Shown here piece by piece: positions 3,411 to 26,755 of a DNA stretch of 26,755 nucleotides. Under the pieces are notes generated by a model, which was not told where the DNA came from, did no database searches, and worked only from the letters and a program-made list of their open reading frames with translations. Positions within the stretch are counted from its first letter, which is position 1, and each line of letters starts with the position of its first letter. Source of the stretch: a virus. The stretch is from IMG/VR virus record IMGVR_UViG_3300001097_000050, positions 1 to 26,755 of that record; one strand, 5' to 3'. Both the position numbers and the translations under genes were made by a program.

Positions 3411-3447
3411 ATAATAACCCGCTGTTTTACATTTGTCAACAATTATT
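3411..3447 (-). promoter_or_regulatory. Sigma70-type promoter of the left early operon
   Basis: On the minus strand TTGACA (3434-3439) and TATTAT (3411-3416) are separated by exactly 17 bp, close to the sigma70 consensus. Positions 3423-3447, covering the -35 and half of the spacer, are identical to 9066-9090 in the exonuclease promoter. The -35 sits in the short imperfect dyad TTGTTGACAA, a possible repressor site. Confidence 0.8.
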
Positions 3448-3479
3448 TAAACCATATCGAGCACATCCTCGCAATGGCC

Positions 3480-3544
3480 GGCAAAATGGTGCCGGCGTCA
3501 GGAAAATGGTTTGCCAGCTATACTGTTAGTATAATAACTAGGAG
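3480..3544 (+). promoter_or_regulatory. Upstream control region of the ECF sigma gene
   Basis: The region holds a dyad GGCAAAATGGTGCC (3480-3493), AAAATGGT twice, 20 bp apart (3483-3490, 3503-3510), and two -10-like hexamers, TATACT (3519-3524) and TATAAT (3530-3535). The SD AGGAG (3540-3544) lies five bases before the ATG. No consensus -35 precedes either hexamer at the right spacing, so an activator or a non-sigma70 holoenzyme may be needed. CCAGCTATACT (3514-3524) also occurs in the capsid promoter. Confidence 0.55.
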
Positions 3545-3549
3545 CAATC

Positions 3550-4077
3550 ATGACTGAAACACAGCTTTTTGAGGCTAGGGTTAAGGAATGCAAGGGGGTG
3601 ATCAGGGGTCTTGTGGGACGCTTTATACGTGACGATGCCACCGCCCAGGATGTAATGCAGCAAATATTTATGCGCGCCTGGATCCAGCGCGACAAGTTTG
3701 CTGGGCGATCTAAGTATTCCACTTGGATATATAAGCTGGCCACGCGGTGTGTATATACCCACCTTTACGGCAGCAAGAGGCGGATACGCATCATTGACGA
3801 ACCCCCGGAAAGGTTTGAGCATATTCATAGCGTGGGCCATTACCTGTACTCATCGCCGGATATTCAGCTTGGCGACGAGGAAGACCTGCGCCGCCTCGAA
3901 GCAGCCGTCAAAACGCTACCAAAACCCCTACAAGAGGCCCTGGTGCTCCAGACGGTCTATGGGTGGCCCATTGAGCAGATCGCCACGGAATTACGCATCC
4001 CGGAGGGCACGGTTAAGTCCCGCCTGTTCAGGGCCAAGGCAGCACTTAAAGAAAAATTGCCAAAGCTTCCCGACTAA
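3550..4077 (+). CDS. ECF-type RNA polymerase sigma factor
   Basis: A 175-aa protein with the two-domain ECF layout. Sigma2 spans about residues 18-80: the region 2.1-2.2 helix contains DDATAQDVMQQIFMRAW and region 2.3/2.4 contains KYSTWIYKLATR. A short linker follows, then sigma4 at about residues 122-170 (LPKPLQEALVLQTVYGWPIE then IATELRIPEGTVKSRLFRAK, a clear helix-turn-helix). The length is normal for ECF factors and no anti-sigma gene is adjacent. It is the only plus-strand gene in the window and visibly richer in G+C than its neighbours (about 57% in one 60-bp sample against 37% in a neighbouring one), suggesting separate acquisition. A phage role in redirecting host RNA polymerase, perhaps to late promoters, is inferred. 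Confidence 0.9.
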   Translation: MTETQLFEARVKECKGVIRGLVGRFIRDDATAQDVMQQIFMRAWIQRDKFAGRSKYSTWIYKLATRCVYTHLYGSKRRIRIIDEPPERFEHIHSVGHYLYSSPDIQLGDEEDLRRLEAAVKTLPKPLQEALVLQTVYGWPIEQIATELRIPEGTVKSRLFRAKAALKEKLPKLPD

Positions 4078-4212: not shown

Positions 4213-4434
4213 CTAACCTCCGCTTGTCCTGTGACTTTTTTCATCTTTCCCCCACCTGTAAAATCCATAAAGCTGCAGGCAAATTGAGGGCAGCGTAAAT
4301 AGCGCCTGCGACCAGAGGTTGCGATGAGTGTCGATCACAACCCAGTAACAGCAACATCCGGCGTGGACCATAAAGCCCCAACGGTTTTTCTTAATGCCAA
4401 GCCATGTTCCCCATTTGCCTGATAGCTTGGCCAT
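4213..4434 (-). CDS. Small Trp/Cys-rich membrane protein (PnuC-tail-like)
   Basis: 73 aa with two hydrophobic segments, about 18-34 (RWGFMVHAGCCCYWVVIDTH) and 42-60 (ALFTLPSICLQLYGFYRWG). The pattern of a G-x-W-x-G-x-KK-N-R-W-G start and a Y-G-x-x-x-W-G ending resembles small phage proteins that look like the last part of PnuC-type nicotinamide riboside carriers. A real transport function is doubtful at this size. It is read from a promoter at about 4560 through the DnaA-box cluster. The SD is poor. It is convergent with the sigma gene. Confidence 0.65.
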   Translation of the reverse strand: MAKLSGKWGTWLGIKKNRWGFMVHAGCCCYWVVIDTHRNLWSQALFTLPSICLQLYGFYRWGKDEKSHRTSGG

Positions 4435-4516: not shown

Positions 4517-4551
4517 TTATCCACAGATTCATCCACAGATTATGTGGATAA
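4517..4551. other. DnaA-box cluster, candidate replication origin
   Basis: TTATCCACA (4517-4525, consensus), TCATCCACA (4529-4537, one mismatch) and TGTGGATAA (4543-4551, consensus in the opposite orientation) lie within 35 bp of gene-free DNA (4435-4586), flanked by the AT-rich stretch 4576-4598. DnaA boxes of the TTATNCACA type bind host DnaA. The replication protein gene ends about 220 bp away. This may be an origin element or a DnaA-controlled regulatory site. Confidence 0.7.
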
Positions 4552-5725: not shown

Positions 5726-6247
5726 CTACTTCTCTTTACCCATAATCCCTATAAGCAATGCCTGTTGCACATCAACCGCACCCCCTATAAACAAATCTTG
5801 ATATGGCTTAATGCTTGGCAGCTCGGCAAAATTATCAAATGGAATTACCACTGCATTGAATTTGGCCCTGTGTGCGGCATACAGCTTGTCTGACACCCCA
5901 CCCACCCCGTTTATAGCCCCCTTGTCCCCAATCTCGCCCATAAAGGCTATATGCTGGTTTATGGCTTGTTTGGTTATGGCTGAATACAACGACATGTAAA
6001 TCGCAAGCCCAGCGCTTGGGCCGTCTATCGGGCCCGGAATGGTTATGTAAATCTTTAGCTTTGACATGTTTATGTCTTCTAGCTCGTCAAAAACCTCAAT
6101 AACTTTGTTGATAGAGGCAACGCATTCGGCCCCCAGGTCGGTTTTTATAAAAATATTGCCCTTGCCGCGTGTCACCTTGGTATGAATTTGGATAATATTA
6201 GAGCCGTGTGGTGTCCACACCACCCCGTGTGCAATACCTGCTTTCAT
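5726..6247 (-). CDS. Stand-alone Lon-type (S16) serine peptidase domain
   Basis: The 173-aa protein corresponds only to the C-terminal proteolytic domain of Lon; the AAA+ ATPase and N-terminal domains are absent. The nucleophile motif is DGPSAGLAIYMSL (S78), and the catalytic lysine is K121 in NGVGGVSDKLYAAHRAKFNA. The Ser-Lys distance of 43 residues equals that of E. coli Lon (S679, K722). GEIGDKGAINGVGG matches the Lon segment between them. The start has AAGGA at suitable distance. Without an ATPase it cannot unfold substrates alone, so it may cleave flexible targets, act with a host or phage partner, or be regulatory. The early-gene position argues against a purely capsid-maturation role. 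Confidence 0.88.
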   Translation of the reverse strand: MKAGIAHGVVWTPHGSNIIQIHTKVTRGKGNIFIKTDLGAECVASINKVIEVFDELEDINMSKLKIYITIPGPIDGPSAGLAIYMSLYSAITKQAINQHIAFMGEIGDKGAINGVGGVSDKLYAAHRAKFNAVVIPFDNFAELPSIKPYQDLFIGGAVDVQQALLIGIMGKEK

Positions 6248-9036: not shown

Positions 9037-9090
9037 CTCCTGTATAGGAGCTTATGTTACCCTAGTGTTTTACATTTGTCAACAATTATT
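9037..9090 (-). promoter_or_regulatory. Promoter and SD palindrome of the recombination operon
   Basis: Minus-strand TTGACA (9077-9082), 17-bp spacer, TAACAT (9054-9059). Positions 9066-9090 are identical to 3423-3447 in the left early promoter. Between -10 and the start codon lies the perfect dyad CTCCTGTATAGGAG (9037-9050), whose minus-strand AGGAG is the ribosome-binding site. This parallels the left promoter, although the palindrome sequences differ. Confidence 0.75.
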
Positions 9091-22843: not shown

Positions 22844-23399
22844 GAGATCCTTCTCCTGTAATATTAATTCGTGGGCTAACCACTAATAGATATTCTAGCA
22901 CATCTGAGCTTTCTGGATTAACTGCTATGCCACTGCTTGCAAACTGCAGGATATGAAACAAGGGCATTAACTTCCCAAGCCACCATCTCTCGTCCTGCTG
23001 TATTAAGTGCGCGTTACGGCCGTCCTCTAAAGTCTTTTTAGCTGGCCTATTAGCAACTACAAAATACCCTAATTGCTTGGTTAAGCGACAAAGGTCTGCT
23101 AACACAGCATCAATGCAATCAGGCTCTATATGCTCTAAAACGTCTGTGCAAACTACTATATCAGCGGGGCTGGGCAGCTCAGCATACTTTGGAACTGCAG
23201 GATCATATTGATTAATTGCAAATGGTAAATTCTGAGCAAGGGTAGACTTGCCGCAACCATAATCCAATAGGTCAGTGCTTCCCACCATCTTGCAGGTGAC
23301 CTGAATATGTGATGCCCACTTGTGCCCAGAGGTCCCGTAGTGTTTATTTGTCTCGTGCAGGCGCTCATTTAGTTTCCGATATTCTTCCGTGATTAGCAT
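22836..23399 (-). CDS. Class I SAM-dependent methyltransferase
   Basis: 187 aa. Motif I is LLDYGCGKSTLAQ (about residues 43-55); motif II-like INQYDPA follows; then DIVVCTDVLEHIEPDCIDAV carries the motif IV/V region. The C-terminal half (FVVANRPAKKTLEDGRNAHL, WWLGKLMPLFHI) matches small-molecule or sugar methyltransferases better than DNA methyltransferases: there is no DPPY/NPPY motif. With two glycosyltransferases beside it, O-methylation of a glycan or of a glycosylated virion protein is the likeliest role, by context. Overlaps the TPR-glycosyltransferase gene by 35 bp. Confidence 0.83.
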   Translation of the reverse strand: MLITEEYRKLNERLHETNKHYGTSGHKWASHIQVTCKMVGSTDLLDYGCGKSTLAQNLPFAINQYDPAVPKYAELPSPADIVVCTDVLEHIEPDCIDAVLADLCRLTKQLGYFVVANRPAKKTLEDGRNAHLIQQDERWWLGKLMPLFHILQFASSGIAVNPESSDVLEYLLVVSPRINITGEGSHV

Positions 23400-24885
23400 T
23401 TAATAAATTCCCTTTATGCTCTAACTCCATAGCCACATCAGCAACCACCGTGCTCCAGTTGCCGCCCTCTAATTGCCATCTATTGGTAACCGACTTATAC
23501 CAAGGCGCATCCTCGCCATATGGCCCCACTTGCCACAAGGCTTCCTTAGGGCACATCTGAATAGTGCGAACGCCAAGGGCGCCCGCCAAATGAATTACCG
23601 ACTGCGGCACCGAGATAACCAGATCTAGATTAAACAGCAGCCCTGCAGTTAAGTCGTAATCATCTACAATATCTTGCCAATGAGTTATAACGTCCCTGCC
23701 TTGTGACTCATTAAAAGCGTCAACCTCGGCACGGGCGTTGCAGTGGTACTGCAGGGATATAATATCATACTGATCTTGAAAAATCGGTAGCAGTTCGGTA
23801 AGAGGGATTGATCTAGTAGGTTTGTTGGTAGAGCCCACGCCACCTTTCCAGCTAATGCCTATTTTAGGCTTGCGGCCCTTAACGTCTAGCGTTACTAGCC
23901 TGTCTGCTGCTTTATCAATGTATTTTTGTGCCACGTTCAAATAGGGCGCGCCTGGAAATGCGTCTTTGCTTTTCCTGTAGAACTGCCCAAGTTGCGATAT
24001 AGGTATTTGAAAATCAATCTGCTTATGATTTTTAAGCCAGCTAATTTCTATGGCCTTGCGCGTCCCATAAAAAGTTATATTTTTAAAGCTGCCTCTAAAC
24101 ATCTCTAGTAAGCGTGGGTGAGTTTCCATGATGACGTTTGCATCTTGCGCTATTTCATTTAGCATCGAGGCAAACATAATCTCGTCGCCTATACCCTGCT
24201 CACCATAAACAACCACAGTAGGCTTGCTCAAGGCTACGCCGGCCACGGTATGTGGGCGTGGGCCACCCCATGCTGGCGTTGTTCCATGTGGAGCGTGATA
24301 GTTGCGAGTCTTGGCTTCTTTTTGCAATAGATTATAACTGTAACCTTCAAAGCCTTTGTCATAAACGCCAGACTCAAGGTAGGCGAGCCCTATATTCCAC
24401 ATAGCGTTTGGGGTGCCAGGCAAGATGTCTATGGACTTCTGGAGATGCTCTATAGCTTGCTTTGGGTTGCCGCGCCCTACATAGCATGAGCCTAGGTTGG
24501 CCCAGTATTCAGCTAGATTTTTGTCGGCGCGAGCTTTGTCGTTTTCACATTTAGCAAGGTATGCCGGAGAAGATGCAATCTCCACTGCCCGGGTAAAGCA
24601 GATAACACACGCTTCGATATCGCCTAGGATTCGATAAGCTGATGCCATATTGTTTAAGCATTCATCAAAATTTGGCTGCAACTCAAGAGCTTTTTCATAT
24701 GCCATAGTGGCAAAGGCATATTGTTTCTTGCCGTAATACAGGCACCCTAGGTAGTAATACAAAATATGTGCTTTAGGGTTTAAATCTAAAAGATAGGTAA
24801 GTTTTTTTTCGGCTTTGTGGAATTCTTTTTTTTCAATGTGGTAAAAGGCTTCGACTGCCATCTCTCGCAGGTTTTCGTATGCCAT
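23365..24885 (-). CDS. TPR domain fused to a GT9-like glycosyltransferase
   Basis: About 506 aa from the ATG at 24885 (MAYENLREMAVEAFYHIEKK); a longer frame from a TTG at 24960 lacks support. Residues about 10-190 form TPR repeats (YYYLGCLYYGKKQYAFATMA; WANLGSCYVGRGNPKQAIEH; WNIGLAYLESGVYDKGFEGY). The C-terminal part has GEQGIGDEIMFASMLNE, then IGISWKGGVGSTNKPTRSIP and LDLVISVPQSVIHLAGALGV, motifs of TPR-linked glycosyltransferases related to family 9. These add sugars to proteins or polysaccharides; the TPRs usually present the acceptor. It lies directly after two capsid-operon genes, so virion protein glycosylation is an attractive but unproven idea. Confidence 0.85.
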   Translation of the reverse strand: MAYENLREMAVEAFYHIEKKEFHKAEKKLTYLLDLNPKAHILYYYLGCLYYGKKQYAFATMAYEKALELQPNFDECLNNMASAYRILGDIEACVICFTRAVEIASSPAYLAKCENDKARADKNLAEYWANLGSCYVGRGNPKQAIEHLQKSIDILPGTPNAMWNIGLAYLESGVYDKGFEGYSYNLLQKEAKTRNYHAPHGTTPAWGGPRPHTVAGVALSKPTVVVYGEQGIGDEIMFASMLNEIAQDANVIMETHPRLLEMFRGSFKNITFYGTRKAIEISWLKNHKQIDFQIPISQLGQFYRKSKDAFPGAPYLNVAQKYIDKAADRLVTLDVKGRKPKIGISWKGGVGSTNKPTRSIPLTELLPIFQDQYDIISLQYHCNARAEVDAFNESQGRDVITHWQDIVDDYDLTAGLLFNLDLVISVPQSVIHLAGALGVRTIQMCPKEALWQVGPYGEDAPWYKSVTNRWQLEGGNWSTVVADVAMELEHKGNLLNANHGRISETK

Positions 24886-24947
24886 GTACAAAATCCATTT
24901 TAGTTGTCCATTGTTTAACATAATGGCAAACAAAATGCCCAAGCACA

Positions 24948-24971
24948 AGTACCCCGACAACCCAGGGTACT
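24948..24971 (-). other. Inverted repeat between capsid genes and the glycan cassette
   Basis: Arms AGTACCC (24948-24954) and GGGTACT (24965-24971), with a 10-nt loop, lie in the gap between the 146-aa virion gene and the TPR-glycosyltransferase gene. The following minus-strand sequence is T-rich but not a clean T-tract. It may weakly terminate or process the mRNA, lowering expression of the cassette relative to capsid protein. Confidence 0.4.
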
Positions 24972-25009
24972 CATACAGGACAACTTTATACCATTGACAT
25001 AGAACCTAT

Positions 25010-25450
25010 CTAGCTCGGATTCATGGTGTAAATTACGTTTAGGGCAAACTCAAAGCTTGATGTTGCGGTACCAAGGGTCAAGCCTGCAACCAAGTATGCA
25101 TACTGTGTTGCTTGCGTGTCTGTGATACTAACAATATAAGGAAGCTTTAAAGCTGACGCTACGTTATTTTGGCCTTGTGTAACCTGGCTCATAAAAGCAG
25201 ACAGTGTTAGCACTTGGTCTTTAATACCCATATCTACTGTGGCAGTAGCCGCACCGGTGGAATGCGCTTCAGACAAATAACAAATGGACGCGCCATTTGG
25301 TATCCGGCAGAATTGCACGCGCACGGCGTTGGCGCTTGCGGTGATGTCAGTAGTATTAGTGTTATTAAAACGTACTGAGCGGGCTATTGTGCCCGATGGC
25401 ATGTCTCTGGCAACGGTCGACATAGCTGTTGCAGTTCTAGTGGTAGTCAT
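25010..25450 (-). CDS. Probable capsid-associated (decoration-type) protein, 146 aa
   Basis: Thr/Ala/Ser-rich, beta-rich protein with few charges (MTTTRTATAMSTVARDMPSG; NNTNTTDITASANAVRVQFC; LTLGTATSSFEFALNVIYTM). It is encoded 9 bp after the major capsid gene, where decoration or head-completion proteins are usually found. No specific fold identified. Confidence 0.65.
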   Translation of the reverse strand: MTTTRTATAMSTVARDMPSGTIARSVRFNNTNTTDITASANAVRVQFCRIPNGASICYLSEAHSTGAATATVDMGIKDQVLTLSAFMSQVTQGQNNVASALKLPYIVSITDTQATQYAYLVAGLTLGTATSSFEFALNVIYTMNPS

Positions 25451-25459
25451 TTATATCTC

Positions 25460-26509
25460 CTAGGTTGTTCCAGCTTGGCCAGAGGTTATCAATGCAATCG
25501 TTCCGAAATCCTGGCTATTAAACACAGTTTTCTTCCCGCCCCAAATCATACCTGCAGCTACACCTAGCTGATTGCCGTAGTCGAACAATTCCTCTACCCA
25601 ACTTACTTTATTTCCAGCAGAGTCTTGACCAAACGCTAGTACTGCAGCTTGCGCGCCTGCAAATACGCCGCGATAAGCCCCAGCTACAACGCTCGGGACC
25701 CTTGTGGACTCATGGATAATAACGTTGTTGTACATTCCAAGGGCGCCCGTAAAAATGGGGTTCTTAGTGATTTCCCCACCAGTTAAGGCAGCTTTCTGGA
25801 TGTCAAACCATTGTCCAGCGTTAGCGTTAGTACGCAATGCTGTTACTTGGTAAGGGTGCAAGAAAAGCACATAGTAGTCTTCGCCCATCATGCGAATTGG
25901 TCTAATGCATGGAGAGTTCAATTTAGCTTTTTCTAATACGAAATCGATAAATTGGATCTTCATAACGTTAGATGCAGTTGCAGATGCAACCGCAGTTTCG
26001 TCCGCTACACCGTTAGCGTAGTAAACGTTATTGCTAGATGGTGCTGTTGGCGTGTTGTTACAAGCAACTCGTGTATCGGCGCCTGAAACCCCTGCTAACT
26101 GGTTGAAGAAACCAAGGTCAAATGCTTGTGCATACCAGTCAGATAATCCGATCTGAGCTTGTTCTCGTACAGAGAATGGCACGCGTTGTTCAGACATTTT
26201 ACCGCCTGAGCGAACAGCATTACGAAGTTGGTTGATATAAAGGTTATCGGTATATACCTGCAACGCTTCTTCATTACCTTCTAGTGTGGAGTCGCCTTGC
26301 ACACCAAGAGCAGTTAACTGCATGCGTAATGGCACTGTGATTCTATCGCCTGGACCTTTTTGGGTGTCGTCTAGCAATTGAATCATCGAGTTATCGTCAT
26401 TGCCGATGAATTTGTACATCCAAGTTTGTTTTAGAGCTTCTTGGAAAAGCTTACGCGACCAAAGTTTGACCGCGACTGGGCTGTTAACGCCCCATTCACT
26501 GACCGCCAT
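25460..26509 (-). CDS. Major capsid protein, N4-gp56 family
   Basis: 349 aa. The N-terminus (VAVKLWSRKLFQEALKQTWM then YKFIGNDDNSMIQ) and the segments KGPGDRITVPLRMQLTALGV, NQLRNAVRSGGKMSEQRVPF, SDWYAQAFDLGFFNQLAG and GEDYYVLFLHPYQVTALRTN match N4-gp56-type HK97-fold capsid proteins; the C-terminus (GVAAGMIWGGKKTVFNSQDF) is also typical. No N-terminal delta domain or protease motif is seen, so a separate scaffold may be needed. A strong SD (AAGGA) lies seven bases before the ATG inside a small perfect hairpin. A promoter is about 150 bp upstream. Confidence 0.92.
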   Translation of the reverse strand: MAVSEWGVNSPVAVKLWSRKLFQEALKQTWMYKFIGNDDNSMIQLLDDTQKGPGDRITVPLRMQLTALGVQGDSTLEGNEEALQVYTDNLYINQLRNAVRSGGKMSEQRVPFSVREQAQIGLSDWYAQAFDLGFFNQLAGVSGADTRVACNNTPTAPSSNNVYYANGVADETAVASATASNVMKIQFIDFVLEKAKLNSPCIRPIRMMGEDYYVLFLHPYQVTALRTNANAGQWFDIQKAALTGGEITKNPIFTGALGMYNNVIIHESTRVPSVVAGAYRGVFAGAQAAVLAFGQDSAGNKVSWVEELFDYGNQLGVAAGMIWGGKKTVFNSQDFGTIALITSGQAGTT

Positions 26510-26690
26510 AGTAAAATCCTTTTACTGTTGCGCTAATAAAAAAACTCAATCAAGCCTGCTGGCTTAACATCCCTAGTTTCTGTTTTTAGCGCCCAGTCGG
26601 CGGATTACTTACCATAGCTTGTAAGGCAGCAGTGCTTTTAGCGAGCACCCAACGGTATTTTTAGTATAGCTGGTGACTTAGGACTTGCAA
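26510..26690 (-). promoter_or_regulatory. Capsid promoter and structured 5' leader
   Basis: Minus-strand TTGCAA (26685-26690) and TATACT (26663-26668), 16 bp apart, form a plausible promoter; 26663-26673 equals CCAGCTATACT upstream of the sigma gene. The leader of about 145 nt holds GTGCT/AGCAC (26632-26648), a stem AAGCC/GGCTT (26552-26565) followed by seven T (26538-26544), GCGCTAA/TTAGCGC arms (26586-26592 with 26530-26536) that could pair across it, and AGTAAAA/TTTTACT (26510-26526) around the SD. No gene is seen in this stretch. Roles in attenuation are inferred. Confidence 0.6.
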
Positions 26691-26713
26691 GGATGCTATA
26701 TTTTACATGCGCA

Positions 26714-26755
26714 TCAACGGGGTCGTTCCTGTAGCGTCATTTGGCTGGCTGGCTG
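26714..26755 (-). CDS. Possible 3' end of the gene upstream of the capsid gene
   Basis: A minus-strand frame open from the window edge to a TGA at 26714-26716 would encode a C-terminus QPASQMTLQERPR. Genes for scaffold or other head proteins normally precede the capsid gene, so a coding end is plausible, but 13 codons cannot prove it. The frame also contains an ATG giving only MTLQERPR. Confidence 0.25.
   Translation of the reverse strand, partial: QPASQMTLQERPR

Follow-up and report, generated by a model that had tools for sequence, protein, structure and literature searches.

The discovery of an ECF sigma factor gene in a small phage raises the question whether the encoded protein replaces the usual late transcription switch, as the preliminary description of this locus proposed, or plays some other role. 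The window, that is, the whole stretch of DNA analyzed here (26,755 bases), comes from an uncultured virus record, and with the help of overlapping records, the phage genome closes into a circle of ~34.7 kb: L002/L104 represent the same phage in a second record, with one mismatch over 9.3 kb, and L105 is a third overlapping record. In the window and its ~8-kb extension, the minus strand holds every other convincing protein gene, including those for structural proteins, a RecE-like exonuclease, ERF, a replication protein, small early proteins, a ParB-like protein and the terminase. The sigma gene was thus correctly singled out as the only plus-strand gene, with the caveat that a piece similar to a tmRNA 3' end lies on the same strand. 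This piece (GGGTTCAATTCCCAGCACCTCCACCA; window 26719-26755, plus strand, continuing to L105:12088) scores 24.2 bits against the Rfam tmRNA model, below the gathering score, and could be an attachment-site remnant; a search of the phage for a lysogeny gene in the form of a tyrosine integrase found none.

The sigma gene has the following parts:
3550-4077, plus strand: ECF sigma factor of 175 aa, region 2 at approximately residues 12-76 and region 4 at approximately residues 114-168
within 3550-4077, plus strand: -35 recognition helix GTVKSRLFRAKAAL, and Arg66 in place of the Asn of region 2.3
3540-3544, plus strand: AGGAG ribosome-binding site of the sigma gene, recognized by sequence

The open reading frame contains zero internal stops and, together with the ribosome-binding site and the family matches, confirms that the phage carries an intact ECF sigma. 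The protein matches the Pfam domains Sigma70_r4_2 (1.8e-14) and Sigma70_r2 (1.5e-10), both above the gathering scores, the NCBIfam sigma70-ECF superfamily (80.6 bits against a cut-off of 42.9), the PHROG 1740 sigma factor family (7e-25) and, in the PDB, AlgU/SigH and E. coli sigma-E (1e-18 to 1e-22), all of which is far beyond chance. It also shows the layout of group IV (ECF) sigmas, in that it has regions 2 and 4 but neither region 1.1 nor region 3, and its length falls within the ~170-200 aa range. The same gene, at ~100% identity, is present in the second record of the phage. Searches of bacterial and viral contigs for close homologues returned, among the viral contigs, only the phage itself and the related phage G005, and pattern scans of genome contigs yielded no homologue above ~27% identity. 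As noted previously, the gene is richer in G+C than its surroundings (53.4%, compared with 45.1% over the circular genome), and its GC3 of 0.61 is the highest among the 28 genes checked, which suggests recent acquisition.

Judged by its motifs, this is a real ECF sigma that is probably active. The residues of the region 2.1/2.2 core-binding motif are retained (D34, Q37, F40, A43, W44, F50 and W59), and the core-binding stretch, DVMQQIFMRAW compared with DVVQESFVKAW in RpoE, is intact, so that recruitment of the host RNA polymerase is plausible. The -35 helix is nearly identical to that of RpoE (KSRLFR and RSRIFR, respectively), and in a fold search, the sigma4 domain of the model superposed on sigma-E region 4 bound to -35 DNA at 1.2-1.3 A over ~66 residues; the full-length model has low confidence because only three sequences could be aligned. 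The region 2.3 position occupied by Arg66 participates in -10 recognition in ECF structures. Given that Asn is found there in 16 of the 19 ECFs compared, including RpoE, the -10 specificity of the phage protein may be altered, a change that bears on specificity and leaves the membership in the ECF family untouched. A tree against the ECF groups, as had been suggested, was built, but gave no supported placement: the phage protein joins Streptomyces SigE at 87/84, in what was flagged as a long-branch join. A clade uniting it with the G005 ECF was not rejected (p-AU 0.22), and on this tree, the two may or may not have a common origin.

The region upstream of the sigma gene also contains the control elements of the left early operon, listed here together with the promoter of the exonuclease/ERF/replication operon located elsewhere:
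3411-3439, minus strand: host sigma-70-type promoter of the left operon, TTGACA-N17-TATTAT, 11/12 matches
3452-3477, strand not assigned: inverted repeat CCATATCGAG-N6-CTCGCAATGG, candidate operator between the divergent promoters, also found 5' of the G005 ECF gene
3477-3496, strand not assigned: another inverted repeat, GCCGGC-N8-GCCGGC, likewise between the divergent promoters
3519-3535, plus strand: candidate -10 elements of the sigma gene, TATACT (3519-3524) and TATAAT (3530-3535), by consensus match only
9054-9082, minus strand: sigma-70-type promoter of the exonuclease/ERF/replication operon, TTGACA-N17-TAACAT

The sigma gene is indeed divergent from the left early operon, which starts at a strong sigma-70-type promoter (3439->3411) that has a 25-bp identical block in common with the exonuclease operon promoter. 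For the candidate -10 elements of the sigma gene itself, a canonical -35 is absent. Pairwise comparison of the intergenic regions, following the approach used for phage 7-11, gave the sigma-70 repeat and the inverted repeat as the best common elements. The inverted repeat, in the form CCATATCGAG-N6-CTCGCNATGG, occurs in 24 viral contigs (window 3452-3477, L103:5895-5920 and L108-L131), mostly inside open reading frames of unrelated genes, where it encodes DHIENDLAMV or, inverted, NHCEDNLDMV, and is non-coding 5' of both ECF genes. With the 22 other viral-contig matches located mostly within unrelated open reading frames, it was rejected as a sigma-specific site. An 11-mer upstream of the sigma gene (CCAGCTATACT, 3514-3524) has its one further genomic copy at the capsid promoter; this sharing is near chance, and the 11-mer was dismissed as a meaningful element.

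Downstream, the sigma gene converges with a short open reading frame:
4213-4434, minus strand: fragment of a PnuC-like protein (NMN_transporter, 30.9 bits against a cut-off of 27.3), convergent with the sigma gene

The absence of an adjacent anti-sigma gene was borne out, with zero matches to anti-sigma families among the neighbors checked; the open reading frame at 4213-4434 was considered for this role and rejected, being the PnuC-like fragment. Just 3' of the sigma gene, near the replication gene, three DnaA-box-like sequences (TTATCCACA, TCATCCACA and TTATGTGGATAA) cluster at window positions 4517-4551, a possible origin of replication. The early operon also encodes a stand-alone Lon C-terminal proteolytic domain (5726-6247, minus strand; PF05362, 3.6e-25).

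The late genes and a regulator near the terminase bear on the proposed switch, and the features concerned are the following:
25460-26509, minus strand: major capsid protein (PHROG 334), encoded by the late gene used in the promoter analysis
26663-26690, minus strand: sigma-70-type capsid promoter, TTGCAA-N16-TATACT
26702-26729, minus strand: candidate sigma-E-type site, GGAACGA-N16-GTAAA, 5' of the capsid gene and the sole such site in the genome
L002:3721-4551 (circular map 32006-32836, beyond the left end of the window), minus strand: XRE-region 4 sigma-like protein, just upstream of the small and large terminase genes

The capsid protein, which we take to be of the N4-gp56 type, is preceded by a sigma-70-type promoter. 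In L011, whose capsid protein is 83% identical, TTGCAA-N16-TATAAT is found in the same place, with 11 of the 12 hexamer positions but only 5 of the 16 spacer positions conserved, and the G005 capsid gene has TTGCAT-N16-TATATT. A working sigma-70 promoter would show just this combination of conserved hexamers and a diverged spacer. This argument is drawn from close relatives, because across 51 more distant relatives, the sigma-70 scan showed no general enrichment over shuffles. Scans for sets of sigma-E-type promoters found none above shuffles; these scans use an RpoE-type consensus and, given Arg66, may miss the true sites of the phage protein. No repeated promoter motif was found upstream of the late genes. 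The GGAAC-N-GTAAA site at 26729-26702, on the correct strand 5' of the capsid gene, is a tentative candidate target: one site was found against 0.8 expected genome-wide, with three motif variants tried, and it was not seen in L011 or 5' of the G005 capsid gene.

The 276-aa protein encoded next to the terminase genes combines a Cro/CI-like N-terminus with an RpoD-type sigma region 4 (PF04545, 1.9e-14) and is a competing candidate for late control; the confidence of its AlphaFold model was too low for use.

The region 5' of the capsid gene has several other features. A hairpin with a CGTTA/CGCTAA-type loop recurs in the leaders that precede N4-gp56-type capsid genes (window ~26630-26660, minus strand; L011-L086), and its stem has 5 or more pairs at 15 of 51 loci compared with 1.1 (maximum 3) in shuffles; the stems vary between phages, and Rfam had no match in the six loci tested. 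A short palindrome, AACATCCAYAGATGTC, occurs twice upstream of the capsid gene (L105:12195-12237, minus strand; circular map ~26931-26973), a similar one, CCATCCACAGATGG, lies upstream of the G005 capsid gene, and these palindromes are possible operators. The slot itself holds the tmRNA piece in this phage (circular map 26510-27050), the ECF sigma gene in G005 (23261-25023) and, as read by eye, a MarR-like open reading frame in L011, and looks like a hotspot for accessory elements.

Among the 21 relatives with records of at least 30 kb, two (G005 and G061) encode an ECF above the threshold, a count that comes from two different profiles and from records that may be incomplete, most relatives' records being fragments. 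In G005 (capsid 65% and terminase 63% identical), the ECF is 35% identical to that in the window and is encoded between the capsid and scaffold genes, and in G061 (terminase 56% identical), it is 27% identical and encoded between the portal and terminase genes. The three ECF genes thus lie at three separate places in the genome and in each case run opposite to the genes next to them. Because so few relatives carry such a gene, and those that do have it elsewhere in the genome, the ECF gene in this lineage is sporadic and mobile in position.

The reading that we favor, although at about even probability, is that this is an accessory, recently acquired group IV ECF sigma that supplements the host sigma-70 rather than an obligatory late switch; the accessory character follows from the outlying GC3, the scarcity of ECF genes among the long relatives and their three different positions. 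The data show the protein family, the integrity of its domains and motifs, its composition, its sporadic presence among relatives and the sigma-70-like sequences of the early and capsid promoters, and from these, we infer that the protein binds the core enzyme, as well as its promoter specificity, its timing and its targets. Under this scheme, the sigma would be made from a promoter of its own that diverges from the early operon, would bind the host core RNA polymerase through the intact region 2 and would steer it to a few promoters with a sigma-E-like, GGAAC-type -35 element and perhaps an altered -10 element. The targets might be one or a few phage promoters, with the site 5' of the capsid gene as the best candidate, host sigma-E-type promoters, or both. 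The earlier proposal that the protein redirects the host polymerase to phage promoters stands as plausible with respect to the polymerase, but no set of sigma-E-type promoters rises above shuffles. The lone GGAAC-N-GTAAA site would fit a late role, against the accessory reading. An obligatory late sigma, one that moves the host polymerase away from early promoters of the sigma-70 type and onto phage promoters, has precedents in phage 7-11 (gp47, without a host shut-off factor) and phiEco32 (gp36) (PMC8948821), and the strong early promoters with their common block are also in its favor. Neither the position of the gene nor the missing anti-sigma is decisive against it, given that in several phages, an ECF or ECF-like sigma is the true late factor without an adjacent anti-sigma (PMC8948821). 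Nevertheless, we consider it unlikely, and the claim of a replaced late switch was not upheld: the capsid promoter is sigma-70-like and conserved in a relative, no repeated motif was found upstream of the late genes, sigma-E-type sites do not exceed shuffles, a second region 4 protein adjoins the terminase, only 2 of the 21 long relatives carry an ECF, and significant similarity to gp36 or gp47 is lacking. A two-step switch, in which an RpoE-type ECF with altered -10 specificity works alongside the XRE-region 4 fusion in a small phage with an N4-gp56 capsid, and acts at a second promoter dedicated to the capsid gene (26729-26702) and added 5' of the old sigma-70 promoter, appears quite improbable.

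The protein might instead act mainly on host sigma-E-type promoters, for example, those for envelope stress or outer-membrane proteins, as a host-directed moron comparable to some Bacillus phage sigmas that act on host sporulation genes. The RpoE-like -35 helix, the single-gene cassette of foreign composition opposite to its neighbors and the near absence of matching sites from the phage itself all point this way, and phage sigmas that act on host dormancy genes are known (PMC9429907); yet, with no integrase found, lysogen fitness is no obvious pay-off, and the -10 Asn is changed, so that this reading, too, is doubtful. A captured host gene decaying without function would account for the outlying G+C and the change of one near-invariant residue, but is hard to reconcile with the intact frame, ribosome site and both domains, with the matching gene in the second record and with the ECFs of the two relatives, and we regard it as very unlikely. 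Least probable of all is a decoy that titrates a host anti-sigma factor and frees the host sigma-E: a resemblance to RpoE/AlgU recommends it, but the identity to RpoE is just ~30%. The finding places a small (~35 kb) uncultured phage lineage among those with an ECF sigma and shows ECF genes gained and lost at varying positions atop a host-type promoter set. If active, the protein offers a compact test case for the addition of an accessory sigma where the late promoters of the phage already work.

Among cellular sigmas, gammaproteobacterial RpoE/AlgU (TIGR02939) is the best family match, with the same two-domain layout in addition to the similar -35 helix. However, the phage protein scores 93.6 bits against the equivalog cut-off of 236.15, lacks the region 2.3 Asn of RpoE, and has no rseA-like anti-sigma gene downstream, whereas in Klebsiella, rseA follows rpoE. 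The G005 ECF (L103:6300-6797) resembles it in the shared upstream inverted repeat and in lying opposite to neighboring late genes, but differs in its location between capsid and scaffold, its low G+C and its grouping with RpoE at 92/90 support. The phage-borne ECFs of PHROG 1740, crAss-like and Bacteroides phages are only 22-26% identical and belong to different phage groups. Phage sigmas that recruit the host RNA polymerase are known from experiment (PMC8948821), and ECF or ECF-like sigmas acting on phage promoters are already known. In particular, gp47 of Salmonella phage 7-11 was shown to act at a bipartite promoter to direct late transcription, with no shut-off of the host (PMC8948821), and gp36 of phiEco32 is annotated as an ECF sigma. 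These two phages share with ours a phage ECF or ECF-like sigma, sigma-70 early promoters and the lack of an annotated adjacent anti-sigma. Yet, gp36 and gp47 show no significant similarity to the protein described here (E 0.016 and 0.032, respectively), and they are universal in their group and tied to mapped late promoters, whereas the present ECF is sporadic and the capsid promoter of its phage is sigma-70-like.
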